From contig JAUIBD010000005.1 of NCBI GenBank assembly GCA_030427525.1, forward strand, positions 1-52,258: a stretch of 52,258 nucleotides of DNA, read 5' to 3'. Under the pieces are notes generated by a model. The model saw only the letters and a list, made by a program, of their open reading frames with translations, made no database searches and had not been told where the DNA came from. Position 1 is the first letter of the stretch. Each line of letters starts with the position of its first letter. This document shows positions 37,380-49,976 of the stretch, piece by piece. Both the position numbers and the translations under genes were made by a program. This DNA comes from a bacterium (GTDB lineage Bacteria > Patescibacteriota > Saccharimonadia > Saccharimonadales > Saccharimonadaceae).

Positions 37380-37717
37380 GTCACGTATCCAAAGAGCCAA
37401 CTGACTATAAATTTCGTGATGTGAATGGCCATCACGGCAAGGAGTTTAAGGTCAATTCTGCTCTAATTGATGCCCTAATAATAGAATGTGACGACGAAAT
37501 GACAGTTACCCTACAGGAAAAAGAAGTCGAGCGATTATATTACGTAATCTCCGGCAACGGCTATTTTATTGTGGATGGCGTAAAAGAAGATGTCAGCTCT
37601 GGGGACCTAGTGCATTTACCAAATAATTCTATTTTTACATTCGGCGGCACGCTAAAGATGCTTCTTGTAGATGCACCACTTTGGTCGCCCGAACAGGAGA
37701 TAATACATGCGCGTTAG
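37376..37717 (+). CDS. Cupin-domain protein
   Basis: A 113-residue single-domain cupin: EVERLYYVISGNGYFIVDG (motif 1 region, poor in histidine), then VSSGDLVHLPNNSIFTFGG (motif 2 region). Most metal-ligand histidines are missing, so it may be a non-metal binding cupin. It overlaps the hydrolase by 4 bases and pheT by 11, so it must be translated with them. The function is unknown; small ligand binding is the general family role. Confidence 0.8.
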   Translation: MSHVSKEPTDYKFRDVNGHHGKEFKVNSALIDALIIECDDEMTVTLQEKEVERLYYVISGNGYFIVDGVKEDVSSGDLVHLPNNSIFTFGGTLKMLLVDAPLWSPEQEIIHAR

Positions 37718-40235
37718 TCTGAATACAATCAAACAATTCACGCCTGTCGATATTTCTGTAGATGAATTAGTGCAGAAAATAAATCAGCAACTTGGTGGCG
37801 TTGAAGAAGTTGTAGACCTTGGTGTGCGCTACGAAGGCGCGGTTATTGTGCGCGTTGTAGAATGTGAAAAGCATCCAGACGCAGACAAATTAAATGTCTG
37901 TATGGTAGACGATGGCAGTGGCGAGCTAACTCAAGTAGTGTGTGGTGCGCCAAATGTGCGCCCTGGCATTATGGCTGTGTGGTTGAAGCCGGGGGCTACA
38001 GTGCCATCTACTGCGAACGACCCTGAACCATTTGTTCTGTCGCCAAAAGAACTTCGCGGCGTAGTCAGCAACGGCATGTTGGCAAGCGCTAAAGAGCTAG
38101 GCATCGGCGATGACCACAACGGCATTGTAGAACTAGTAGAGACAGATGTTGCCGAAGGAAAATCGCTGGATGTAGGCGCCAGTTTTGCCGACACGTTCGA
38201 CTTAAACGACACGATTATCGACATTGAAAACAAAATGTTTACCCACCGCCCAGACCTTTTCGGGCAACTCGGCGTCGCGCGTGAAATTCGGGCAATACTG
38301 CAGCCCGAACCAAGTGCCACTGAACATTCCGAACAATTCACCGATGATGCCGACTGGTACTGGCGAGAGTGCACATTTGAACCAGCCGAAGGTCTAGATC
38401 TTGCGGTTAGTAACGACATCCCCCAGCTCGTTCCTCGTTTTATGGCCGTCGTATTAAACAATGTGACAGTTAGCCAAAGCCCAATGTGGCTGAAAACGAC
38501 GTTGGTTCGTTGGGGCTCAAAGCCTATCAACAACGTGGTCGACCTTACAAACTACATTATGCTACTTACGGCGCAGCCAACTCACGCGTACGATTACGAC
38601 AAGCTGCGTGGCCACACGTTAAATGCGCGCATGGCGAATGAAGGCGAACAGCTTGAACTGCTCAATGGTAAAACCTACACTCTGAGCACAGACGATATCG
38701 TGATAGCCGACGGCGAGGGTGCCATTGGCCTGGCTGGAATAATGGGCGGTAATAACAGTGAGGTTTCTGCCGATACGACAAGCATTGTACTGGAAGTCGC
38801 CACGTTCGATATGTATGCCGTACGTAAAACTGCTATGCGTCACGGTGTCTTTACCGATGCTCTCACCCGCTTCAATAAAGGTCAGTCATACTTGCAAAAT
38901 CACCGCGTACTAAACCGCCTTATGCAACTTATGGGCAGTATAGCTGGCGCGCAGCAGGCAAGTGATGTGGCCGACCTTAGCGGTGATAAATCGGTTAAAA
39001 ACCAAGAAAGTATACACGAGCCATTACGGCTAGATGCGAGTTTTGTAAACGAACGACTTGGTTTAGAACTCAATGCCATTCAGATAGGAAATATTCTGCG
39101 CCCAGCACAATTCGCAACGTATCGCCCAGATGATGGTGCAGAAAGTGAAGTACTTATTCATGCACCGTTTTGGCGTACCGATATTGAGCTGCCAGAAGAT
39201 ATTGTTGAAGAAGTCGGCCGTTTGTACGGGTTCGATAAGCTACCCCGCGAACTGCCACTACGCCACACCACGCCAGCGCCGAAAAACACCGAACTTGTAC
39301 TGAAGCAATCCGTTCGCAACAAACTCGCGGCTGCGGGTGCCAACGAAGTGCTGACCTACAGCTTTGTGCACGAAAACACTATTCAAAAAGCTGGCCAAGA
39401 TGCCATGCACGCCTTCAAGCTATCAAACGCTCTCAGCCCAGATCTGCAGTACTACCGCCTGAGTGTCACGAGTAGTTTGCTAGAAAAAGTTCACATGAAC
39501 TACCGCGCGGGCTACGACCAGTTCGCTTTATTTGAACTAGGCAAAACGCACTTCAAGGGCGAAATGGATGAAACAGACCCATCTGTGCCGAACGAAGATT
39601 CGCACCTCGCTCTTGTGCTGACATATGGCGACAAGCAAAAACCAGCCGGCGGCGCATACTACCAGGCACGAAACTACCTAGAACAGCTGATTGAGCTAGA
39701 AACTATTACGCTACAGCCACTTGCTGACTTTGACCTTTCTACCGACGAATGGGGCGCACAGCTTTGTTCAGCCTATGCACCAAAACGATCGGCGGTGATT
39801 GTAAAAGACGGCCAAATTTGGGGCGTGGTAGGCGAGTTTAGCGCGAAAGTTCGCGATGCATTCAAATTACCAGCCTACAGCGCAGGGTTCGAAGTGCATC
39901 TAGACGTACTAAAGCAAAGTGAAAAAGGCTATCGCCCGTTGTCACGCTACCCCAGCACCTGGCAAGACATTTCACTGAAAGTTGCCAGCAGTGTTCCATA
40001 TGCTAGTGTATTTGAAACTGCCAAAAACGCCGCGCAGTCAGCCGCAAACGACATTGAAGTTGAACTCACGCCACAAAGCATTTACCAGGCAGATGATGAT
40101 AGTGAACATAAAACCATCACCTTGCGCGTAATGCTAACGCATCACGACCGCACGCTAAAAGAAGCCGAAGCTACGGCTGTCATCGAAGCCGTCGCGGCGG
40201 CAGCAGGCAGCGAACATGGCGCCCAGCACGTGTAA
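37707..40235 (+). CDS. pheT: Phenylalanyl-tRNA synthetase beta subunit
   Basis: An 842-residue subunit with full domain order: N-terminal tRNA-binding OB fold (VRVVECEKHPDADKLNVCMV), B3/B4 editing region, B5 domain (PEDIVEEVGRLYGFDKLP), catalytic-like core, and the C-terminal ferredoxin-fold anticodon-binding domain (YPSTWQDISLKV to TLKEAEATAVIEAV). With PheS it forms the heterotetramer and edits mischarged tyrosine. It starts inside the cupin gene. Confidence 0.96.
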   Translation: MRVSLNTIKQFTPVDISVDELVQKINQQLGGVEEVVDLGVRYEGAVIVRVVECEKHPDADKLNVCMVDDGSGELTQVVCGAPNVRPGIMAVWLKPGATVPSTANDPEPFVLSPKELRGVVSNGMLASAKELGIGDDHNGIVELVETDVAEGKSLDVGASFADTFDLNDTIIDIENKMFTHRPDLFGQLGVAREIRAILQPEPSATEHSEQFTDDADWYWRECTFEPAEGLDLAVSNDIPQLVPRFMAVVLNNVTVSQSPMWLKTTLVRWGSKPINNVVDLTNYIMLLTAQPTHAYDYDKLRGHTLNARMANEGEQLELLNGKTYTLSTDDIVIADGEGAIGLAGIMGGNNSEVSADTTSIVLEVATFDMYAVRKTAMRHGVFTDALTRFNKGQSYLQNHRVLNRLMQLMGSIAGAQQASDVADLSGDKSVKNQESIHEPLRLDASFVNERLGLELNAIQIGNILRPAQFATYRPDDGAESEVLIHAPFWRTDIELPEDIVEEVGRLYGFDKLPRELPLRHTTPAPKNTELVLKQSVRNKLAAAGANEVLTYSFVHENTIQKAGQDAMHAFKLSNALSPDLQYYRLSVTSSLLEKVHMNYRAGYDQFALFELGKTHFKGEMDETDPSVPNEDSHLALVLTYGDKQKPAGGAYYQARNYLEQLIELETITLQPLADFDLSTDEWGAQLCSAYAPKRSAVIVKDGQIWGVVGEFSAKVRDAFKLPAYSAGFEVHLDVLKQSEKGYRPLSRYPSTWQDISLKVASSVPYASVFETAKNAAQSAANDIEVELTPQSIYQADDDSEHKTITLRVMLTHHDRTLKEAEATAVIEAVAAAAGSEHGAQHV

Positions 40236-40261
40236 TCTGCTACAATAGGAAAGCTTAACAA

Positions 40262-40362
40262 TTTAATATCACGAAGCGGCCAGAGAACTGACTCGATGAC
40301 CCGCTAGCAACCAGCATATATTGTGCAAGGTGCTCCATTCAGCCCAAGAAAGGGATAGATAT
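40262..40362 (+). promoter_or_regulatory. SAM riboswitch (SAM-I/SAM-IV clan) controlling metK
   Basis: The leader shows the S-box core in order: TATCACGAAG, ACTGACTCGATGA, GCTAGCAACC, AAGGTGCTCCATTCAGCC and GATAGATAT. P1 can form from ATATC (40266-40270) and GATAT (40358-40362); P2 from AGCGG (40275-40279) and CCGCT (40301-40305); P4 from CCC (40343-40345) and GGG (40352-40354). The GGG of P4 is also the Shine-Dalgarno core (AAAGGGA), and P1 ends at the base before the ATG. SAM binding would therefore hide the ribosome site directly. A TACAAT box (40239-40244) is a likely -10. Confidence 0.82.
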
Positions 40363-41331
40363 ATGACATTCTATCGAACGGCGGAGTCTGTGTCGCCAAA
40401 ACACCCAGACAAACTATGCGACCAAATATCGGACGCAATTCTAGACGCGTATTTGCGTGAAGACCCAGACGCGCGCGTGGCAGTCGAAACAGTTGGCGGG
40501 CACGGTAAAATTTTTATCACCGGCGAGGTGTCTAGTAACTCGCACCCAGCGCTTGAACCAATTGTTAAGCGCATTGCTGGCGATATAGAGCTAGAAATTC
40601 ACTTGGCTAAACAAAGTAGCGAAATTGCCCGTGGTGTAGACACGGGCGGAGCCGGCGACCAAGGCATTATGGTTGGCTATGCATGCAACGAAACACCTGA
40701 ATTTTTGCCACTCGAAGTTGTACTAGCTCGTTCGCTGAACCAATATTTGTATGAAAAATGGCCATTCGATGGCAAAACCCAAGTAACGCTAAAAGATGGC
40801 GAAATAGTAGCGGCGGTAGCGAGTTTTCAAAACTCAGCCCACGATGAACTCTTAGCTGCGGTAAAAGAATGGGCTGCCGGGTGTGGTACGCGGCTTGTTC
40901 CAGACTCGCCAATCCACGTGAACCCTACGGGTGACTGGCACCAAGGCGGCTTCGATGCTGACGCTGGCCTGACGGGTCGCAAATTGGTAGTAGACAATTA
41001 CGGCCCGCGTATTCCTATAGGTGGTGGCTGTTTTTCTGGTAAAGACCCATCAAAAGTAGACCGCAGTGCGGCGTATATGGCGCGTAAAATTGCGCTCGAT
41101 TACCTGAAAAAACGAGGAGCAAGCGAAGTATTTTGCCACTTGGCCTATGCTATTGGGTACGATCAGCCACTGGAAGCTACGGTGACAATAGACGGTGTGC
41201 AGGTACAAGTCGAAGGCTACGACTTATCACCAAACGGCATCATACAAACGCTTGATCTAAAACGCCCTGTTTACGAACAAACCGCCCGCTATGGCCACTT
41301 TGGCCATCGCGATTTTGCATGGGAAAGCTAG
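40363..41331 (+). CDS. metK: S-adenosylmethionine synthetase, short form
   Basis: The start is ATG at 40363, seven bases after AAAGGGA; the frame upstream to 40321 belongs to the riboswitch. The 322-residue enzyme has the MetK motifs AESVSPKHPDKLCDQISDA, the ATP motif GAGDQGIMVGYA, HVNPTGDW, GLTGRKLVVDNYG and the loop GGGCFSGKDPSKVDRSAAY. It is about 60 residues shorter than typical MetK (380-400), mainly by deletions in the N-terminal and central domains; the C-terminus ends at the usual GHFGHRDFAWE. It makes SAM from ATP and methionine, matching the SAM riboswitch upstream. Confidence 0.95.
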   Translation: MTFYRTAESVSPKHPDKLCDQISDAILDAYLREDPDARVAVETVGGHGKIFITGEVSSNSHPALEPIVKRIAGDIELEIHLAKQSSEIARGVDTGGAGDQGIMVGYACNETPEFLPLEVVLARSLNQYLYEKWPFDGKTQVTLKDGEIVAAVASFQNSAHDELLAAVKEWAAGCGTRLVPDSPIHVNPTGDWHQGGFDADAGLTGRKLVVDNYGPRIPIGGGCFSGKDPSKVDRSAAYMARKIALDYLKKRGASEVFCHLAYAIGYDQPLEATVTIDGVQVQVEGYDLSPNGIIQTLDLKRPVYEQTARYGHFGHRDFAWES

Positions 41332-41344
41332 CTAAGCCATGCGA

Positions 41345-41394
41345 AACCCCCGAAGGGGTCTCACGCGCCGAAGCGCTGTCTCCTCTCGGGGGTT
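41345..41394 (-). terminator. Structured terminator after the first HTH/zinc-ribbon gene
   Basis: AACCCCCGA (41345-41353) pairs with TCGGGGGTT (41386-41394) around a nested GCGC-CGAA-GCGC hairpin. It lies 25 bases after the stop at 41419 on the minus strand. The same outer stem recurs at 41875-41927 behind the paralogous gene. Confidence 0.7.
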
Positions 41395-41418
41395 GAGACT
41401 TGGGGTAGGCGAGGTCTG

Positions 41419-41775
41419 CTAGTCGCAGCAGGCGCCCGATGCAGGTAGCTCGAGGTGGCAGATGATACAGATCGCCACGGCGAGCGTGCTACGCCGAGGC
41501 TGACCATGAGGCTTGTCGCCTGGTGTGCCTTTGTCTGACACGTCGAACTTCTCATCGAGTATGTCAGACATAGGCACGCCGAGCGCTACTGCCAGCGCCA
41601 TGCCACACTGCCGGTTGGTCCTGAACCGCACGGCTGTGCGACCCTCGATGTTCTGAATCACGAACCGTGAGACACCAGCGCGCCGTGCGAGCTCTGCGAT
41701 TGTCCAGCCCTTCGCCACGCGTAAGGCTTCCAGCGGTGTGACATGATGGTGAGCAGGTTGCTGGGCTACTGTCAC
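41419..41775 (-). CDS. XRE-family HTH regulator with cysteine-rich tail (GC-rich)
   Basis: A 118-residue protein: an XRE helix-turn-helix (EALRVAKGWTIAELARRAG, VSRFVIQNIEGR, about residues 15-46), VALGVPMSDILDEKFD, then a C-terminal cluster CIICHLELPASGACC that could bind zinc. The start is GTG at 41775, seven bases after AGGAAGG. Codons are strongly GC-ending (the row 41581-41640 is 41 G/C of 60 by hand count), unlike the flanking genes. It shares layout and the CxxCHL motif with the 41929-42282 gene. Its DNA target is unknown. Confidence 0.75.
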   Translation of the reverse strand: MTVAQQPAHHHVTPLEALRVAKGWTIAELARRAGVSRFVIQNIEGRTAVRFRTNRQCGMALAVALGVPMSDILDEKFDVSDKGTPGDKPHGQPRRSTLAVAICIICHLELPASGACCD

Positions 41776-41828
41776 GTCATTGCCTTCCTGTCTAGGTACT
41801 TCCCGGTTTTCCCCTGAATCCTACTTAA

Positions 41829-41856
41829 ACATTAGCAGAAAGATTCGGTGTGTCAA
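41829..41856 (-). promoter_or_regulatory. Promoter of the first HTH/zinc-ribbon gene
   Basis: On the minus strand, TTGACA (41856-41851), a 16-base spacer and TAATGT (41834-41829) form a promoter in an AT-rich gap between two GC-rich genes. A leader of about 45 bases with AGGAAGG follows. Confidence 0.6.
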
Positions 41857-41874
41857 TATTTTTTAATACGAAAG

Positions 41875-41927
41875 AACCCCCGAGGGGGTCCTCTCGTGAG
41901 TTGGTCACGGGAACTTCTTCGGGGGTT
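41875..41927 (-). terminator. Structured terminator after the second HTH/zinc-ribbon gene
   Basis: AACCCCCGA (41875-41883) pairs with TCGGGGGTT (41919-41927) around GC-rich inner pairing, one base after the stop at 41929 on the minus strand. The outer stem is identical to that at 41345-41394. Confidence 0.7.
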
Positions 41928-41928
41928 G

Positions 41929-42282
41929 TCAGGCTGCGATGCGCTCACCGCAGTTCTCGCACCCGATGTGAACGGGAGCGATCAGATGGCAGCCCAGGCA
42001 CGTCATCTCGTTGATGAACGCGTCGGGCGCCAGCTGCGCGATCGGCTTGCCTGTATGGGCCGGTCGACCCAGGTGCGAGAGCTCGTTGTGGCTGAAGATG
42101 TCGCCGACCTCGCAGTCCAGCGCATCGGCCAAGGCCTTAGCTACGCCTTCGTTCGTCTTGTAGGGGTTTCTCTCCGGGTTCTCGATCCGGTAGATCGCCG
42201 ACATCGAGATGTCAGAGAGGATTGCCAGATCGGCGACGGAGAGTCCGTAAGACTCCCGAACGACTTGCAGCATGTGCTTCAA
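41929..42282 (-). CDS. XRE-family HTH regulator with C-terminal zinc ribbon (GC-rich)
   Basis: A 117-residue protein: XRE helix-turn-helix (YGLSVADLAILSDISMSAIY, RIENPERNPYK, about residues 12-42), ALADALDCEVGDIFSH, and a C-terminal zinc ribbon CLGCHLIAPVHIGCENCG. The start is TTG at 42282, nine bases after AGGAG; ATG at 42273 is too far from it. GC-ending codons dominate. It is a diverged paralogue of the 41419 gene. This combination is common in actinobacterial phages and plasmids, which suggests transfer. Each of the two genes has its own promoter and terminator. Confidence 0.75.
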   Translation of the reverse strand: MKHMLQVVRESYGLSVADLAILSDISMSAIYRIENPERNPYKTNEGVAKALADALDCEVGDIFSHNELSHLGRPAHTGKPIAQLAPDAFINEMTCLGCHLIAPVHIGCENCGERIAA

Positions 42283-42340
42283 GAGAATTCGCTCCTGTGG
42301 GTTGTAGGGGTCCTAACCTCTGGAAAGAGGCCTATTTTGC

Positions 42341-42369
42341 ATTATAGCATAAGCTTTATAAAAAGTCAA
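42341..42369 (-). promoter_or_regulatory. Promoter of the second HTH/zinc-ribbon gene
   Basis: Minus-strand TTGACT (42369-42364), 17-base spacer, TATAAT (42346-42341). The leader of about 50 bases contains a CCTCT-TTCC-AGAGG hairpin before the AGGAG ribosome site. Confidence 0.75.
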
Positions 42370-42384
42370 TAATCTTGTATTAAA

Positions 42385-43191
42385 CTACTTCAATAGCGAG
42401 CGCATTTGCTTGGCTATCAGCTTGGTGGCGAACACTGGGCTTACACGGTAAAGTTTGTTCATCATTTTCGAATCTTTGCCGGTGTATATCTGTGGCTTGT
42501 TTGCTTCCATGCCGTCTACGATTAGCCTGGCTGATTCGCTGGCAGGCAGCATCGGGAACTTCTTTGCCGCTTCGTCGGCTTCGGCACTAGCTGGGGCATT
42601 TACACCAGAATTTTTGGTAATGTCGGTTTTGGTTGCACCAGGGAATACCAAGCTTACGCGTACGCTCGTTTCTAACAGTTCGGCGTACAAGCCTTCGGTG
42701 AGTAATTTTACAGCTGCTTTACTGGCACCGTACACACTCTGGCCAGGCACTGGCAAAAAGCCACCCATGCTGGCTACGTTCACCAGGTGTGCTTCTTCGC
42801 GAAGTAGCAGGGCAGGTAGGAACGATTTTGTCATATATAGCGTGCCATAAAAATTCACGTTCATCACGCGCTCTATGTCGTCGTACCCCAGGTCATTCAC
42901 CTTTACAAATGGCTGCACTATACCTGCGCAGTTTACGAGACCATCTATGTGCCCGTGGGCTTTTTCTACCTGTGCGGGTAATGTTTCTACGGCTTTTCGG
43001 TCGCTAATGTTCAGTGCATATGTACTTAGCTTTTCGCCCGCAGATAGTTTTTCTTTCAGTGCTTGCAGTGATTCGTCGCGTAGATCTACGGCGGCCACTT
43101 TTGCGCCACGTTTTAGTAGCTCGGCCACCACCTCGCCGCCAATGCCACCGCCGGCGCCTGTTACCACTACTACTTTGCCTTGTACCTTCAT
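42385..43191 (-). CDS. Short-chain dehydrogenase/reductase
   Basis: A 268-residue classical SDR: cofactor motif VTGAGGGIGGEVVAELL, Asp in AAVDLRDE favouring NAD(H), the NCAGIVQPF motif, catalytic Ser in VNVASMGG and the YGASK active site, followed by LVFPGATKTDI. The C-terminal 70 residues resemble acyl/sterol-type SDRs. Substrate is unknown. Base composition is like the native genes, in contrast to the GC-rich regulators just downstream. Confidence 0.9.
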   Translation of the reverse strand: MKVQGKVVVVTGAGGGIGGEVVAELLKRGAKVAAVDLRDESLQALKEKLSAGEKLSTYALNISDRKAVETLPAQVEKAHGHIDGLVNCAGIVQPFVKVNDLGYDDIERVMNVNFYGTLYMTKSFLPALLLREEAHLVNVASMGGFLPVPGQSVYGASKAAVKLLTEGLYAELLETSVRVSLVFPGATKTDITKNSGVNAPASAEADEAAKKFPMLPASESARLIVDGMEANKPQIYTGKDSKMMNKLYRVSPVFATKLIAKQMRSLLK

Positions 43192-43278
43192 ACTGTTTCT
43201 TTCGTTTATTTGCTAATTATATTTTAGCACTTTCACGCTAACGCTTGTATTTTCTATTCCTAGGGGTAAAATGTGCCT

Positions 43279-43812
43279 ATGACACAACAATATAGTGGTG
43301 GCAAAGATCGCGAGCCCGCAACACAAGCCAGTATAGACGAAATTGAACATTCGCTTTCATCGCTAATGCAGATTGTCTCAGAGCGTGCGTTGTACTGTGC
43401 GGCGCTATACGATGATTCTATTCCAATTGGTGGCGTGAAAGAATTTATGCGTAGTTTGCAGCCACATCTCGACCATGTCATTGAAGGTTCGCCGCTTGCT
43501 GACGGACCAAGAGTGACTGTGCAAGGAACTGGCAATATGTATGGAATGCGAGGTGAAGAAATTTGTAAGCTCGTAAAGTTCGATGCTGAAAAAACCGTGG
43601 TTGGATCAGTTGCGGGCGCAGCTGCTATCGAACTGCCGCCATGGCATCGTGCCGCCAATCACGATCGTGGACGATTTGTAGCAGCCCTTCGCTTAAAGAA
43701 TGTACACACCGCCGAGCTATCTGACGAAGGTGTTCGCACTGTTCAACAAGACCCTGTGTACGAAAGCTTTGTTCATCTAACGCCTGCGGTGCGGGTGGCT
43801 ATTCATCAATAA
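43279..43812 (+). CDS. Conserved-looking soluble protein, unknown function
   Basis: A 177-residue protein without membrane segments or signal. It starts at ATG 43279, six bases after TAAAAT (43267-43272) with TTGTAT 16 bases farther, and has no Shine-Dalgarno sequence, so the mRNA is predicted leaderless; a frame start at 43273 lies too close to the -10 box. Helical first half (SIDEIEHSLSSLMQIVSERA), then a mixed region (RVTVQGTGNMYGMRGEEICK) and PPWHRAANHDRGRF. I do not recognise the family. A hairpin-chain stretch follows directly. Confidence 0.65.
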   Translation: MTQQYSGGKDREPATQASIDEIEHSLSSLMQIVSERALYCAALYDDSIPIGGVKEFMRSLQPHLDHVIEGSPLADGPRVTVQGTGNMYGMRGEEICKLVKFDAEKTVVGSVAGAAAIELPPWHRAANHDRGRFVAALRLKNVHTAELSDEGVRTVQQDPVYESFVHLTPAVRVAIHQ

Positions 43813-43821
43813 CTATTACAA

Positions 43822-44049
43822 CTACTTTTGGGCGGCAAAAGTAGCAAAACCGCTTCCTTTGTAGGCAAACGAAGCCAAACCTCTGGGGCGGCTTCACTCC
43901 GCCGAGTGCAAAGCTCCTTTGCTTTTCTGGCAACTGCGGAACTCCCGGTGGTCGCCCCTTTGGGGTCGTCCTCGCCGCGCAGTAAAACCACCGGTGCTTT
44001 GCTATCGGGTTGTTGCAGATGCCCCAGACCCCGTAGAGCCCCAGACCCC
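43822..44049. other. Hairpin-chain intergenic stretch (left of the GC-rich glycan operon)
   Basis: At least five inverted repeats follow one another: CTACTTTTG/CAAAAGTAG (43822-43844), GCTTCCTTTG/CAAACGAAGC (43852-43875, one mismatch), GGCGG/CCGCC (43887-43903), GCAAAG/CTTTGC (43908-43922), and CCGGTGGT/ACCACCGG (43945-43994) enclosing CCCC-TTT-GGGG. A 12-base direct repeat GCCCCAGACCCC (44021 and 44038) ends it. The first 60 bases resemble the stretch starting at 46479. No gene is convincing here; 44050-44127 is featureless. Confidence 0.6.
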
Positions 44050-44127
44050 AAGAAACCTGAATATATTATAAAGATTTATTCAAAAGTCGACACAATTGAC
44101 GAGCACGTCATCAACTCTGTTGACTCT

Positions 44128-44166
44128 GGGACGGGAGGCGCTCCTGTGAAGGAGGCCTCCCGTCCC
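44128..44166 (-). terminator. Large hairpin ending the GC-rich glycan operon
   Basis: GGGACGGGAGGC (44128-44139) pairs perfectly with GCCTCCCGTCCC (44155-44166), and CTCC/GGAG continues the stem inward. It lies eight bases after the glycosyltransferase stop at 44175. There is no T-run on the minus strand, so it may be a rho-type, actinobacterial-style terminator. Confidence 0.65.
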
Positions 44167-44174
44167 AGCACGTG

Positions 44175-45299
44175 TCATGCCTTGAAGGGCCGGTTCGGGC
44201 GGATCACCCCGAAGTTGCGTTCGGGGATTGCCATCACGAAGTACCAGACGACACCGATGGGAGTGAGGATCAGGCTGTTGAACAACGCGTAGGGCGGCAT
44301 CAGTAGTAGCCACCTGTTGCGCGTCTCCCAGTTCACCCAGATCACGCTCGCGTAGTACAGCACGGCGACTCCCAGCAGGACCCACGACGGCTCCATCAGC
44401 GTCCACCACCGCAGTCCGACCATCATGATGGTGATCAGACCACCGTACACCCACAGCAGAGGGTGCTTGATGACGTACCGGAAGTTGGTGATGAACAACC
44501 GGAACTCGCCGCCGGCCCACGCGATACGTTGGCGCCACCACGGCCTCAGCCGCGACGGAACCTCGGTGTCGACGTCGAACGGAAGGTGCACCGCCTTGTA
44601 GCCCAGCTGCTCTCCGAGCAGACCGGCCTCGACGTCGTTGCCTTGGAAGAACAACGAGTGCCGCTGCATGATGTCTCGGAAGACCTCCGTCTTGCCCACG
44701 TGGCAGGCTCCAGAGATCATCCACGGCAGCAGAAAGCGCATCCGCATCGACTGGCGGTACTCGTGCCGTTGTAGCTGCACGAGCATTCCTCCGTCAGACT
44801 GCGGAACCAGCTCGATCGAAGCGAAGTCGGCATCCGACTGCTCCAGGGCTCCCACCAGCTTCTCCAGCGGATCTGCTGTCGCGGTGTCGGCGTCGATGCA
44901 CACGGTGTAGGCCCCCAGCCCCACCATAGAGCTCAGTGCGTCACGGATGACACGGTCTCGGATGACGCCGCCGGTACGTCGCTTCTTCGACGACGTCACG
45001 GCCTTGTAGGGGCTGATGTACTGCCGAAAGCCGTACTGCTCGACGACATCGACAAGCTCGTTGTAGAACTCGTCCGACTCGCCGCTGGTGGTACACAGGA
45101 CCACCCGGTCGCCGAAGCGTGCCAGGTAGTCCAGGTTCACCAGGTAGTTCATGCTGCCGTAGATGGGGACCAGGATCGAGAAGTCCTCGCTCCAGCCGTC
45201 AGTCAGTGCGACGTTCTTGTACTTACGGGCCCGCAGGCTCGCGAAGACGTCGACGCTGACCCAGAACAGAGGTAGCGCAATCAGCGCAAGCCACCACAT
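44175..45299 (-). CDS. Membrane glycosyltransferase family 2 (processive synthase-like), GC-rich
   Basis: A 374-residue enzyme: N-terminal membrane helix, GT-A domain (EDFSILVPIYG, AYTVCIDADTATADPLEKL with the metal-binding DAD, LLPWMISGACHVGKTEVF, FFQGNDVEAGLLGEQLGY) and RPWWRQRIAWAGGEFRL, the Q/RxxRW-type acceptor motif of hyaluronan/chitin/cellulose-type synthases. Three or four C-terminal helices follow. It probably polymerises or transfers an activated sugar at the membrane. Codon use is GC-rich and actinobacterial in look. It overlaps the dehydratase gene by 19 bases and has GAAGGAG before the ATG. Confidence 0.85.
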   Translation of the reverse strand: MWWLALIALPLFWVSVDVFASLRARKYKNVALTDGWSEDFSILVPIYGSMNYLVNLDYLARFGDRVVLCTTSGESDEFYNELVDVVEQYGFRQYISPYKAVTSSKKRRTGGVIRDRVIRDALSSMVGLGAYTVCIDADTATADPLEKLVGALEQSDADFASIELVPQSDGGMLVQLQRHEYRQSMRMRFLLPWMISGACHVGKTEVFRDIMQRHSLFFQGNDVEAGLLGEQLGYKAVHLPFDVDTEVPSRLRPWWRQRIAWAGGEFRLFITNFRYVIKHPLLWVYGGLITIMMVGLRWWTLMEPSWVLLGVAVLYYASVIWVNWETRNRWLLLMPPYALFNSLILTPIGVVWYFVMAIPERNFGVIRPNRPFKA

Positions 45300-46351
45300 G
45301 TTGCTCCTTCGTTGTTGAGGGTGAGCGCCGCACGCAGAACTTCTGCGCTGGCGCCGGACTTCAGGAGGCCGTCGAGCTCCTCCAGTGTTGCAGGCACGTT
45401 CACCTCGCTCTTCACCAGCGCCATGTTGACACGCGGGTGGGGGGTCGGGCTGTGCTCTTCCTGGCTCGAAAAAAGCTCCTCGTGGAGCTTCTCGCCAGGT
45501 CGCAGACCGATGAACTCGATCAGGGGGAGCGGCTGGTCAGACAGTCGGGCGAAGTCCTCGATCAGGTCGACGATGCGCACGGGGGTGCCCATGTCCAGGA
45601 TGAAGACCTCTCCACCCTGGGACATGCGCGCGGCCTCGATCACCAGCCCAGTCGCTTCCGGGATGGTCATGAAGTAGCGCGTGACGTCCGGGTGAGTGAC
45701 CCGGATCAGCTGTCCGCGAGCCAGTTGGTGCTGGATCACGGGAAGCAGCGAGCCGTTGCTGCCCAGCACATTGCCGAAACGCACGCTCGTCACGAGCGTC
45801 TCGGTGTTCGTGTAGTGGGCTCCCACCAGCTCAGCTAGACGCTTCGACCAGCCCAGCATCGAGCTGGGGTCGGCCGCCTTGTCGGTGCTGATGTTGACGA
45901 CCTGGGGTACGTTGTTCTCCAGGGCAGCCAACACCACCGAGCGCGTACCGAACACGTTGACGCGAATCGCCATGTCGGGGTGTGCCTCGGTCAGCGGCAG
46001 GTGCTTCTTCGCGGCGGCGTGGAACACGATGTCCGGTCCAGTCGCCGCCATCAGGGTGCTCAGCGCCATGTGGTCGCTGACATCCATCAGATACAGGTCG
46101 TCCGAGGGGCCGAACAACGCGTGGCCGTTCAGGTCGAGCGACAGCTCGAAGAGCGCTCGCTCGTCGATGTCGACCTTGATGATCCTCGCGGCTCCGAGAT
46201 TCCGACACTGTCGGACGATCTCGCTACCGATCGAGCCACCTGCACCGGTGACCAGGACGGTCTTGCCGGAGATCAGCAGCTCGGCCTCGGGCCCGTAGAC
46301 GGGCTGCGAGTCGCGGGGAAGCAGTCGTTCGGGTGCAACAGACAGATTCAT
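45281..46351 (-). CDS. CapD/PglF-like nucleotide-sugar 4,6-dehydratase (SDR), GC-rich
   Basis: A 356-residue SDR of the polysaccharide-biosynthesis group: VLVTGAGGSIGSEIVRQC for NAD(P), KVDIDERALFELSLDL, FHAAAKKHLPLTEAHP, NISTDKAADPSSMLGWSKR (Met replaces the usual catalytic Tyr, as in CapD/FlaA1-type inverting dehydratases), SVRFGNVLGSNGS and FIGLRPGEKLHEEL. It converts UDP-GlcNAc or similar to a 4-keto-6-deoxy sugar. The membrane half of FlmA/WbpM-type proteins is missing. GC content is high (row 45361-45420 is 38 G/C of 60). It is first in a two-gene operon with the glycosyltransferase. Confidence 0.88.
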   Translation of the reverse strand: MNLSVAPERLLPRDSQPVYGPEAELLISGKTVLVTGAGGSIGSEIVRQCRNLGAARIIKVDIDERALFELSLDLNGHALFGPSDDLYLMDVSDHMALSTLMAATGPDIVFHAAAKKHLPLTEAHPDMAIRVNVFGTRSVVLAALENNVPQVVNISTDKAADPSSMLGWSKRLAELVGAHYTNTETLVTSVRFGNVLGSNGSLLPVIQHQLARGQLIRVTHPDVTRYFMTIPEATGLVIEAARMSQGGEVFILDMGTPVRIVDLIEDFARLSDQPLPLIEFIGLRPGEKLHEELFSSQEEHSPTPHPRVNMALVKSEVNVPATLEELDGLLKSGASAEVLRAALTLNNEGATCGGLR

Positions 46352-46405
46352 CAGAACCTATCCTCTCTGTCGGGTGTTATTAAAGGGCGTTTGACACAAG
46401 TGCAG

Positions 46406-46434
46406 ATTATAATAGAAAATACGGTTTTTGTAAA
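46406..46434 (-). promoter_or_regulatory. Promoter of the GC-rich glycan operon
   Basis: Minus-strand TTTACA (46434-46429), a 17-base spacer and TATAAT (46411-46406) lie in AT-rich DNA just outside the GC-rich coding block. The leader of about 45 bases ends with AGAGGAT nine bases before the ATG at 46351. Confidence 0.7.
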
Positions 46435-46478
46435 TACCCAAGGTTGTGCGTTCTGCCTATTTTTCGCAGAACCAACGA

Positions 46479-46662
46479 CTACTTTTGGTGTCAAAAGGTA
46501 GCAAAAACGTACTTTCTTTCGATGAAAGTACCAAAGGAACGACTCGGGATGTCAGTACCGTCGCCATAAGTCACATTACGCCAGGTCGTGGTCACGAGAT
46601 AACTCCCTGCGGTCGATTCGCCATATTTTATGTTTTACGTATGGCAAACTGCGATCTCGTGA
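46479..46662. other. Hairpin-chain intergenic stretch (right of the GC-rich glycan operon)
   Basis: Inverted repeats follow in series: CTACTTTTG/CAAAAGGTAG (46479-46501), GTACTTTC/GAAAGTAC (46509-46531), and TCACGAGAT (46592-46600) with ATCTCGTGA (46654-46662) enclosing GCCATA/TATGGC (46620-46645). The first 50 bases align with the left stretch at 43822 (ACTACTTTTGG, TAGCAAAA, CCAAA in register), so related elements flank the GC-rich operon in the same orientation. 46663-46806 shows no gene I can support. Confidence 0.55.
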
Positions 46663-46819
46663 ATGACTCCACGCCCAGCGAACGTGCCTTGTGGGCGGTA
46701 CTGCTCCCAAGACCCAATGGCTTCAATAAAATGAACTCCACCACCGCTTCGTCGACAAATCCGAGAGCCCGTTTTTGAATTAGATAAACAATTATATAAT
46801 TCAGCGTATAATAATGCCA

Positions 46820-47467
46820 ATGGTTAGCATCAAGGATAGAAACAAAGACGACAGACCACGAGAGAAGCTGGCGAGATATGGCTCTGAAAAGTTGAGCGAC
46901 CTCGAGTTGTTGATGGCAATCATTGGCAGCGGCAATGCATACTCGGATGTGACAAAAATCTCACGAGACGTAAAGAAGCTCATTTCAGATAAGGGCAGCG
47001 AGCTGACGTACGAAGATCTATTAGGTATCAAAAGCCTCGGCCCCGCTAAAGCCACACAGATTATGGCGGGTTACGAGCTGTGGAGAAGACAGTTCGAAGT
47101 TTCAGAACGGCCCATTATCGATTCGCCAGAAAAGGCTGTCGCACAGCTAGCTGACATTCGTGACAAAAAGCAAGAATACTTCGTGTGCCTCACGCTCGAC
47201 GGCGCAAATCGACTGATAGCCAAGCGTGTCATCACCATCGGAACACTCACCAGCAGCCTCGTTCATCCACGCGAAGTCTTTGCCGACGCTATCACCGACC
47301 GCGCTGCGAGTATCATTATCGCCCATAATCATCCTAGCGGGAGTATTAACGTTTCTGATGCAGATCGAAATGTGACTGATCGGTTGCGGCAAGCTGCCGA
47401 AATCATCGGTATCGAGCTGATCGACCACGTTATAATTACAAAAAATCAAAGCACAACTGTATTATAA
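46820..47467 (+). CDS. radC: RadC-family JAB/MPN domain protein
   Basis: The start is ATG at 46820, seven bases after TATAAT (46807-46812); the in-frame ATG at 46814 is too close to the -10 box, so the mRNA is predicted leaderless. The 215-residue protein has the N-terminal helix-hairpin-helix region (EKLSDLELLMAIIGSGN, GIKSLGPAKATQIMAGYEL) and the JAMM metalloprotease-like core with AHNHPSGSINVSDAD. RadC proteins are common next to restriction-modification and mobile loci; a nuclease or DNA-repair role has been proposed but is not settled. Confidence 0.92.
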   Translation: MVSIKDRNKDDRPREKLARYGSEKLSDLELLMAIIGSGNAYSDVTKISRDVKKLISDKGSELTYEDLLGIKSLGPAKATQIMAGYELWRRQFEVSERPIIDSPEKAVAQLADIRDKKQEYFVCLTLDGANRLIAKRVITIGTLTSSLVHPREVFADAITDRAASIIIAHNHPSGSINVSDADRNVTDRLRQAAEIIGIELIDHVIITKNQSTTVL

Positions 47468-47490
47468 TCTCTGTAACGCTACGTTTGTAT

Positions 47491-47518
47491 TTGACAACGC
47501 TAGATTTCGGAGTATAAT
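47491..47518 (+). promoter_or_regulatory. Consensus promoter of the type I restriction-modification locus (leaderless)
   Basis: A perfect TTGACA (47491-47496), a 16-base spacer and a perfect TATAAT (47513-47518), followed by only seven bases before the ATG at 47526. No Shine-Dalgarno sequence is possible between them. This is the clearest leaderless promoter in the window. Confidence 0.85.
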
Positions 47519-47525
47519 CGGTTAT

Positions 47526-48083
47526 ATGATGGAGTTACGACAACTATTCACAATCTCTACGGGTTACACTTTTCGTGATGCCATCGCGACCATGGAACCT
47601 GGCAATACCGCAGTAGTACAGGCCGGTGATATCACAGCGGCTCGGTTAGCTAGTGTTCCGCGCATCGCTTTTGATAACCCGCGCCATATGTTGCAAGCTG
47701 GTGACATATTGATAAGTGCTCGCGGCAGCGTTGTTGCGCGTACGGTTACACCAGACTTACTGCCAGCGATTGCCGCGTCGTCGGTGTTTGTGTTGCGTCC
47801 AATTTTGGACGATCTCAATCCTCGTTTTGTAGCACGATACCTCAACTCCGCTTACGGCCAAGCGGCGTTGCGGCAAATTGCAACTGGCGCGTACATCAAA
47901 TCGCTGCGGAAACCAGACATAGCGTCGCTCCAGATTCCACAACCTCCGGTTGCCACCCAAGACATTATAGTAAGGTTGCACGATGTCATAGATGAAAATC
48001 GAAAATTACTAAGACTCAAGGACGAGCTGCTACAGCAACTCGACAATTCCGTCATAAATCAACTACAAGGAGAAAACCAATGA
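47526..48083 (+). CDS. Half-size HsdS-like specificity subunit (one target-recognition domain)
   Basis: A 185-residue protein with one target-recognition domain (AGDILISARGSVVARTV, ARYLNSAYGQAALRQIATGA, KSLRKPDIASLQIPQPP) and a C-terminal coiled coil (LHDVIDENRKLLRLKDELLQQL). Full HsdS proteins have two such units; a half-size form would work as a dimer recognising a palindromic or two half-sites. It overlaps hsdM by 4 bases. A second, full-length-type HsdS starts at 51595, so HsdM could be shared by two specificity proteins. Confidence 0.8.
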   Translation: MMELRQLFTISTGYTFRDAIATMEPGNTAVVQAGDITAARLASVPRIAFDNPRHMLQAGDILISARGSVVARTVTPDLLPAIAASSVFVLRPILDDLNPRFVARYLNSAYGQAALRQIATGAYIKSLRKPDIASLQIPQPPVATQDIIVRLHDVIDENRKLLRLKDELLQQLDNSVINQLQGENQ

Positions 48084-49585
48084 CTCAAATAACTCAAGAC
48101 GAACTCAACAAGGTGCTGTGGTCGGCGGCCGATTCGTCACGAATGTCCGTCGGTGCAGATGTGTACAAAGATTATGCCTTGACGATGCTATTCTTTAAGT
48201 ACTTGAGTGACAAGTCAAAAGCTGAGTACGAGAAATTCCACGAGCGCTTCGCTGGCGATGAGGCTCGGGTCGATGCCAAGATGAAAACATCGAGGTTTTA
48301 TCTGCCACCCAAAAGCTCGTTTGACGATGTATTCGCCCAAAAGGAAAATGACAATATTGGCGAAATTATCAATACCGCATTACATGCTATCGAGGATCAC
48401 AATAAAGACAAGCTGGCTGGTGTATTTAGTGTCGATTTCAACTCCGAGTCGATTCTCGGAAAGCCTCAGCAACGCAACAAGATGATGCGCCATCTGCTCG
48501 ATGACTTCAACAAAATAGATCTACGTGACGTCACAGAAGATATTATCGGTAACTCCTATATGTATATGATCGAAAAATTTGGTGCGGATGCGGGTAAAAA
48601 GGCGGGTGAGTTCTTTACGGTTCGCTCGGTTGCCGAACTGGTAGCTCGTCTAGCTCGACCAAAGCCGGGCGACCGCATTGCCGACCCAGCCGTGGGTTCT
48701 GGAGGCTTGCTACTACTTGCTGGTGAGCAAGTAAAGAAGCAGGGTAGTAGTAATTTTGCACTCTACGGCCAAGAAGCGACTGGCAGCACCTACCAGTTGG
48801 CGCGTATGAACATGTTTTTGCACGGCATGGACACTGCCCACATTGAATGGGGCGATACACTCAACAACCCACTACTGGTAGAGAATGACGGACTTATGAA
48901 GTTTGATGTAACAGTAGCAAACCCACCATTTTCGCTCAAAAAATGGGGAGCCGAGAGTGCAGATGCCGATCCGTACAAGCGCTTCTGGCGCGGTATTCCG
49001 CCAAAAGACAAGGGGGACTATGCGTTTATCTCTCATATGATTGAGACGCTCAAACCGCAGACCGGTCGCATGGCGGTGATTGTACCGCACGGCGTATTGT
49101 TTCGTGGTGGCGCAGAGGGCAAAATTCGTCAGCAGCTTATCGAAGAAAACATCGTCGATGCCGTAATCGGGCTTGCACCTGGACTTTTCCAGACCACCGT
49201 TATTCCCGTAGCTGTGCTCGTAATTGATCGCTCGCGGGAAAAGGGCGGTGCTCGTCAAAACGACAAAAACATCCTGTTTATCGAAGCATCGAAGCAGTAT
49301 AAGCCTGGTAAGGCGCAAAACAGTCTCACCCAAGAAAACGCAGATAAGATTTTTGATACGTTTACTGCGCGCAAAGATGTCGAAAAGTTTGCACACATCG
49401 CTAGCCCAGCAGAAATCAAAGAAAACGACTACAACCTCAATATCACCCGCTACGTAGACACGTTCGAAGAGGAAGAAGAAGTCGATATCGCTGCGACCAT
49501 CAAGGCTATCGACGAACTCAACCCACAGCTGGAAAAACTCGAGGCACAGATGAAGCATTACCTGAAGGAGCTAGGGATTAAATAG
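48080..49585 (+). CDS. hsdM: Type I restriction-modification methyltransferase subunit
   Basis: A 501-residue N6-adenine methyltransferase: HsdM N-terminal helical domain (residues 1-150, LNKVLWSAADSSRMSVGADVY), AGEFFTVRSVAELVARL, SAM motif I ADPAVGSGGLLL (Asp202) and catalytic motif IV NPPFSLKKW (281-289), then the VIVPHGVLFRGGAEGKIRQQ region and a C-terminal coiled coil that docks to HsdS. It methylates the target and is needed for cleavage by HsdR, which is not in the window. Confidence 0.95.
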   Translation: MTQITQDELNKVLWSAADSSRMSVGADVYKDYALTMLFFKYLSDKSKAEYEKFHERFAGDEARVDAKMKTSRFYLPPKSSFDDVFAQKENDNIGEIINTALHAIEDHNKDKLAGVFSVDFNSESILGKPQQRNKMMRHLLDDFNKIDLRDVTEDIIGNSYMYMIEKFGADAGKKAGEFFTVRSVAELVARLARPKPGDRIADPAVGSGGLLLLAGEQVKKQGSSNFALYGQEATGSTYQLARMNMFLHGMDTAHIEWGDTLNNPLLVENDGLMKFDVTVANPPFSLKKWGAESADADPYKRFWRGIPPKDKGDYAFISHMIETLKPQTGRMAVIVPHGVLFRGGAEGKIRQQLIEENIVDAVIGLAPGLFQTTVIPVAVLVIDRSREKGGARQNDKNILFIEASKQYKPGKAQNSLTQENADKIFDTFTARKDVEKFAHIASPAEIKENDYNLNITRYVDTFEEEEEVDIAATIKAIDELNPQLEKLEAQMKHYLKELGIK

Positions 49586-49586
49586 T

Positions 49587-49976
49587 ATGGCCAAAGGGCA
49601 GAAGTTTCAAGTAATTATCCCGGCTGACGTGGACCCAACACCTGAGGTGCACGAAGTGTCTGCTGCGCAAATTGTCGGGCGTTTTCTTGGGGCTGATGTA
49701 CATTTTATGGCGCGCAGTCACTACAAAAGTCCTGATGTAAAAATCGGCAACGAACCATGGGAGATAAAAAGCCCTACCGGAACAGGCAAGCGAAATATCG
49801 AGCGTCAGCTGCAGCTTGCTATGAAGCAGTCGAGCTGTGTCATATTAGACGCACGGCGATCGAAAATCCATATGGCAAAGATACGGAGCAGACTTGTGTA
49901 TCAGGCAGGTATGACAAATAGCCTGAAGAGGTTGCTGCTCATTACTAAGTCCGGAAAAGTTGAGGTGATCAAATGA
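49587..49976 (+). CDS. Small PD-(D/E)XK-like protein related to CdiA-CT tRNase domains
   Basis: A 129-residue protein one base after hsdM. The core SPDVKIGNEPWEIKSPTG has Asp50 and Glu59-x-Lys61 in PD-(D/E)XK spacing, followed by RNIERQLQLAMKQSSCVILD, the RQL...A..Qs pattern seen in CdiA C-terminal tRNase-like and related phage-island nucleases. Here it stands alone, without the toxin delivery part. It may be a nuclease serving the restriction locus or a toxin. No immunity-like partner is adjacent unless the downstream membrane or HEPN-like protein serves so. The family call is by eye. Confidence 0.6.
   Translation: MAKGQKFQVIIPADVDPTPEVHEVSAAQIVGRFLGADVHFMARSHYKSPDVKIGNEPWEIKSPTGTGKRNIERQLQLAMKQSSCVILDARRSKIHMAKIRSRLVYQAGMTNSLKRLLLITKSGKVEVIK

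Follow-up and report, generated by a model that had tools for sequence, protein, structure and literature searches.

A glycosyltransferase-dehydratase unit of probable actinobacterial origin and a separate GC-rich regulator pair in a genome of the Saccharimonadaceae

When two neighbouring stretches of an epibiont genome are both unusually rich in GC, have both been captured from the lineage of its hosts? This question is raised by a 52,258-nt stretch of DNA (here called the window; contig JAUIBD010000005.1 of assembly GCA_030427525.1) from a member of the Saccharimonadaceae. One GC-rich block (41419-42282) contains the genes for two putative helix-turn-helix (HTH) regulators, HTH1 and HTH2, and the other (44175-46351) contains the genes for a putative membrane glycosyltransferase (GT) and a putative nucleotide-sugar dehydratase (DH), with a gene for an SDR oxidoreductase and an orphan gene starting at 43273 lying in between. 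An initial annotation had described both blocks as insertions under AT-rich promoters, possibly acquired from an actinobacterial host or its phage. The observation itself was partly confirmed and the transfer interpretation partly supported, and the two blocks are of different kind and history. The sequence comparisons give good support to an actinobacterial lineage as the source of the block 44175-46351, whereas the HTH pair belongs to a long-standing regulator family of the epibiont's own lineage. The account as a whole, namely a captured actinobacterial GT-DH unit under a recipient-type promoter, with a presumed role in surface glycan formation and with the HTH pair standing apart from it, is regarded as probable.

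The composition of both blocks was compared with 715 kb of the organism's own genome (72% covered), for which the GC content at third codon positions (GC3) averaged 0.453 ± 0.079 and the 99th percentile lay at 0.845. The window has an overall GC content of 47% and the native neighbour genes have GC contents of 48-51% and GC3 values of 0.38-0.54, so that the background of 35% assumed initially was too low; of the two hand-counted values for the blocks, 63% was about right and 68% was somewhat high. The two GC-rich stretches with GC-ending codons are real, with GC3 values between 0.67 and 0.85: HTH1 (GC 61%, GC3 0.67) and HTH2 (61%, 0.81) are separated by a gap of 48% GC, and the second block consists of GT (62%, 0.85) and DH (64%, 0.82), whose composition is extreme in view of the genome-wide GC3 distribution. 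The codons of GT and DH fit Actinomycetaceae better than native genes by about 105-112 ln units, and this block is donor-like in GC, GC3 and codon usage alike. For HTH2 the Actinomycetaceae fit was also the better one, and HTH1 and the gene at 43273 were better described by native genes. The SDR gene is native, as had been proposed, with native-like composition and conserved synteny in relatives; for the gene at 43273 the composition agrees with this view, but the gene is missing from 13 genomes of the same genus.

A scan of named genomes yielded 22 relatives of GT, nearly all of them from Actinomycetota (one, labelled Methanosarcina, is a metagenome bin), and in nearly all actinobacterial loci that were read DH is located directly before GT. 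In the GT tree (29 rows) the sister group consists of four Actinomycetaceae proteins, including one from Actinobaculum sp. oral taxon 183 (support 99/94), and the next sister is Arthrobacter (100/99), which is also the sister in the DH tree (100/95). Contrary to the species tree, both proteins nest in Actinomycetota, and approximately unbiased (AU) tests rejected a forced grouping with homologues from the own class (GT, p=0.0024; DH, p=9e-6). Neither GT nor DH was found in the 13 same-genus genomes. For 44175-46351 the phylogenetic check that had been suggested came out in favour of an actinobacterial transfer, together with the codon data; for 41419-42282 such a transfer is not supported. Other members of the class have distant homologues among the family-2 glycosyltransferases (GT2; 31-37%) as well as PF02719 proteins of the long form, which could indicate that the unit is an ancient gene set of the class that was lost elsewhere. 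However, the AU tests reject one clade with these homologues, the composition has not been ameliorated and the 13 congeners lack both genes; the chance of such a history appears vanishingly small, and a long-lived gene set of the class is ruled out by the AU tests at present sampling.

Some observations weigh against the transfer as reconstructed here. Identity to the nearest GT in the sampling does not exceed 53-55%, and no closer GT-DH donor was encountered among 396 sampled genomes of the order to which the Actinobaculum genome belongs. In the Actinomycetaceae loci that were read, GT has no DH beside it, and as the sister of DH is Arthrobacter, a single donor for both genes has to be presumed. 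The DH branch is also long (1.0).

The site occupied by the GT-DH unit can be recognized in relatives. In G001 and G011, both of them congeners, SDR is followed by a different GC-rich open reading frame (ORF; L090 6292-6630, minus strand, GC3 0.77, or a shorter reading), which has an AT-rich promoter-like sequence and ends in a GC-rich hairpin-like structure. Behind this ORF come an intergenic element, which over 246 nt shares 75% identity with window positions 46475-46800, and then restriction genes. As the ORF differs and the right flank is kept, the GC-rich cargo of the slot between SDR and this element varies from species to species: the slot of the window contains the gene at 43273, the left flank element and GT-DH, and in G001 and G011 it is filled by the other cassette and is not empty. 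Related palindromes (TACTTTTGG...CAAAAG(G)TA) at 43822-43844 and 46479-46501 bracket the segment from 43.8 to 46.5 kb. No tRNA was found near the unit and no integrase among the assigned ORFs; in place of the tRNA or integrase with direct repeats of a classical genomic island, only imperfect palindromic flank elements are present.

Alternatively, the block might be an assembly chimera or contaminant, in which actinobacterial host DNA was joined to epibiont DNA. Host DNA is to be expected in the sample because Actinomycetota are the usual hosts, the genome is distributed over 29 contigs with an estimated contamination of 3.44%, and the left one of the palindromic flank elements ends a contig in genome G002. 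However, a chimera would need two joins no more than 2.5 kb apart. The block is embedded in a 52-kb contig and bordered on either side by native genes, its AT-rich promoter resembles the promoters of further GC-rich units of the genus, and a similar GC-rich cassette occupies the same slot in G001 and G011, where the right flank element is kept ahead of the restriction genes. The flank repeats were also considered as multi-copy points of misassembly and were rejected as such, because each occurs only once in the 715 kb covered of the organism's genome. A chimeric origin is considered very improbable.

A phage source, as put forward in the initial annotation, was not borne out. Searches of 50,697 phage records, of plasmids and, by pattern, of IMG/VR gave no relative of GT, and phage matches of the HTH proteins were weak, so that a host phage as source is unsupported; for GT, DH and the HTH proteins nothing close was obtained except a diverged DH-GT pair of actinobacterial type at 5001-7237 of L241, a 136-kb IMG/VR contig that could represent either a large phage or a wrongly classified piece of chromosome. 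Owing to its own promoter and terminator and its foreign GC content the GT-DH unit resembles morons, the L241 contig has a DH-GT pair, and phages have been predicted against which Saccharibacteria as well as Actinomyces carry spacers (PMC10746230). The unit might accordingly have been delivered by phage and might still serve phage exclusion by surface modification rather than attachment. Yet its neighbours are metK, SDR, RadC and type I restriction genes and no phage genes are present beside it, GT is without relatives in the phage records and the IMG/VR scan, and the L241 pair, which may be chromosomal, groups with other actinobacteria and not with the window pair. Phage-delivered morons are thus held to be an unlikely explanation.

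Both enzymes look like working ones from their sequences. DH contains a PF02719 domain with the GxxGxxG and TDK motifs all present, and its closest solved structure is WlaL/PglF from Campylobacter jejuni (5bju, 225 bits). At the position of the former catalytic tyrosine DH has a leucine (TDK...Lx3K), as have 21 of 21 aligned actinobacterial-type relatives. According to the accessible text of a review (PMC8987622), this position is a tyrosine in most such dehydratases and a methionine in PglF and WbpM; DH deviates from the Mx3K-for-Yx3K signature given there by having Lx3K, and this variant of the 21 relatives does not appear among those that the accessible text describes. As the methionine of PglF is not the base, leucine in DH need not abolish activity. 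For GT, a structural model with a pLDDT of 85 suggests a hyaluronan synthase-like fold with membrane helices, and the top PDB matches are hyaluronan synthases (TM-score 0.57-0.68 of the query); a sequence search gave no relative of GT whose structure has been solved. The DxD motif is kept and QRIAW is present (QR[IL]AW in most relatives) in place of the QxxRW motif of hyaluronan synthases. Departures from highly conserved actinobacterial columns, 7 of 82 in DH and 1 of 72 in GT, do not affect any catalytic motif.

As the catalytic motifs are intact, the pair probably forms a functional module for envelope glycan, with expression from a sigma-70-like promoter in AT-rich DNA. By a tyrosine-free mechanism like that of PglF and WbpM, DH would convert UDP-N-acetylglucosamine (UDP-GlcNAc), probably derived from the host, into a UDP-4-keto-6-deoxy-N-acetylhexosamine (HexNAc), and GT, if its modelled fold is a guide, would transfer the sugar into an envelope or exported glycan. 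The expected product is a surface or exported glycan with a 6-deoxy-HexNAc-type sugar, and such an actinobacterial-type surface sugar could serve the epibiont in attachment, camouflage or phage avoidance. In terms of history, a self-contained DH-then-GT unit with its own hairpin terminator would have come from an actinobacterium of the Actinomycetaceae or Micrococcaceae type and landed between the SDR gene and the conserved intergenic element that precedes the type I restriction genes, where its AT-rich promoter would now be one of the recipient's type. Uptake could have occurred by natural competence, as described for TM7x (PMC12206443), or through phages that touch both partners (PMC10746230). 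Reconciliation work reported relatively few transfers into these bacteria from outside the three candidate phyla radiation lineages studied (PMC8406219). With its phylogeny resolved, the GT-DH unit would be a tangible example of a surface-sugar module from the host's lineage carried by an epibiont, and it makes glycan mimicry or a change of host range through gene capture testable.

In the case of the HTH pair, the distribution does not support an actinobacterial transfer. The order metK-HTH1-HTH2-SDR is identical in G001 and G011, where the HTH1 homologue beside metK is 43% identical, and HTH2-like genes are found near metK in several further congeners. When an alignment of nine members was used as query across the class, full-length HTH-zinc-ribbon proteins were detected in other genera of the same family and in the same class only, and matches from 151 genomes of the Actinobaculum family span almost only the generic HTH. 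As the closest full-length relatives are from the same class and not from Actinomycetota, and the Actinomycetaceae matches are limited to the HTH, transfer of this block from a host is not supported, and the pair appears as a separate family outside the GT-DH transfer. High GC alone had flagged two adjacent blocks as foreign, of which only one is. An older actinobacterial or actinophage transfer, into the ancestor of the genus or the wider family, would agree with the GC3 of the family in most of the genus (0.64-0.82, well above neighbours), with the HTH2 codons and with the weak matches, among them Cro-type proteins of mycobacteriophages. It is at odds with the restriction of full-length proteins to the class, with an IMG/VR search in which no HTH relative was found, with the HTH1 codons, which are closer to native genes, and with a few members outside the genus that have low GC3 (0.31-0.45), and we judge it to be improbable. 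The raised GC of the lineage-specific family in most of the genus, with a few outsiders low, is nevertheless odd.

The AT-rich promoters ascribed to the blocks match at 11/12 positions for DH and HTH2 and are weaker, with 9/12, for HTH1 (Table 1). Promoter matches of at least 10/12 were present upstream of 6 of 12 GC-rich genes, a small set chosen by GC, whereas among the 343 native genes that have an upstream gap the number was 47 (p=0.004). Further GC-rich genes (GC3 0.76-0.94; nine are listed in Table 1), without a Pfam family above cut-off, are scattered over the own genome, and most of the four that were checked in the genus are missing from congeners. Short GC-rich genes follow a pattern of self-contained units with strong promoters and GC hairpin terminators. 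Tentatively, and with more doubt than confidence, it may be proposed that the genus keeps a stock of interchangeable GC-rich cassettes. Each would combine an AT-rich promoter close to the consensus with a GC-rich ORF, in most cases an orphan, and a terminator hairpin rich in GC; the cassettes would be placed singly amid native genes, and one would be exchanged for another at fixed slots, namely beside metK and before the restriction genes. If this proposal were true, the high GC3 of the HTH family in most of the genus, seen despite protein identities of 30-45%, would mean that selection maintains the composition or that recurrent exchange with a GC-rich partner renews it, and GT-DH would be a host module captured into this stock.

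Table 1. Features of the region around both GC-rich blocks, and other GC-rich genes of the same genome
Feature	Position	Strand	Evidence or remark
GC-rich hairpin, terminator-like, after HTH1	41345..41396	-	-31.2 kcal/mol, z -2.8; G001/G011 have a related element at the matching place (90% identical over 51 nt)
HTH1, XRE/Cro-type HTH with C-terminal Cys motif	41419..41775	-	PF01381 above cut-off
HTH1 promoter-like site TTGACA, 16 nt, TAATGT	41829..41856	-	best upstream score 9/12
GC-rich hairpin, terminator-like, after HTH2	41876..41927	-	-26.5 kcal/mol, z -2.9
HTH2, XRE/Cro-type HTH with C-terminal zinc-ribbon-like C-x2-C...C-x2-C tail	41929..42282	-	PF13443 above cut-off
HTH2 promoter-like site TTGACT-17-TATAAT with TG	42341..42369	-	11/12
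SDR oxidoreductase, native, landmark of kept gene order	42385..43191	-	72% identical in G001/G011, same order
Orphan gene, native composition	43273..43812	+	no family match; missing from 13 congeners
Left flank element with palindrome TACTTTTGGGCGGCAAAAGTA	43813..44060	.	related DNA in G002 and G001/G011
GT-DH unit terminator hairpin, 14-bp perfect stem	44126..44168	-	-44.2 kcal/mol, z -7.6
GT, membrane family-2 glycosyltransferase, probable actinobacterial origin	44175..45299	-	PF13632; tree; structure model; motifs
DH, PglF/WbpM-like soluble nucleotide-sugar 4,6-dehydratase, probable actinobacterial origin	45281..46351	-	PF02719, 300 bits; tree; 19-nt overlap with GT
GT-DH promoter-like site TTTACA-17-TATAAT	46406..46434	-	11/12; local GC 28-33%
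Right flank element	46475..46800	.	kept at matching place in G001/G011
Other GC-rich genes, own genome	L042:10523-11560; L043:300-743; L043:2914-3246; L043:11777-12121; L052:17977-18393		
Other GC-rich genes, own genome (continued)	L053:14245-14841; L053:15353-15673; L054:15700-16851; L107:17661-18428		

The type I restriction locus that adjoins the variable slot (46814-49976) comprises RadC, an HsdS-like gene, HsdM and one more gene. On the other side of the region, PheT is 90% identical to that of G002 and the adjoining MetK 77% (window 37707-41331 against L094), which suggests a recombination break between both genes.

Among known systems, the GT-DH unit is close to the stand-alone DH-GT pair of Actinomycetota (Arthrobacter, Actinopolymorpha, Actinoplanes, Streptomyces), with which it shares genes, order and catalytic motifs at 44-54% identity, although the window pair is located in a reduced-genome recipient of another phylum, has an AT-rich promoter and includes a long-branched DH. 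With the UDP-GlcNAc 4,6-dehydratases PglF (C. jejuni) and WbpM (Pseudomonas aeruginosa), as the accessible text of PMC8987622 presents them, DH has in common the PF02719 fold, the TDK motif and the lack of a catalytic tyrosine, but it has leucine for methionine and is without the N-terminal membrane domain. GT resembles hyaluronan synthase and other processive membrane GT2 enzymes in predicted fold and DxD motif, but is shorter, only 12-16% identical and has QRxAW for QxxRW. Like phage morons and the cassettes of hotspots, the unit is self-contained, of foreign GC, equipped with its own promoter and terminator and swapped at one site, whereas no prophage, integrase or tRNA site was found beside it. 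Both HTH proteins resemble XRE/Cro regulators (HTH_3, HTH_26) in an HTH domain above the Pfam cut-off, and differ from them by a zinc-ribbon-like C-terminal tail and a SHLGRPxxTGxPI linker, a combination that occurs in full length in this class only.

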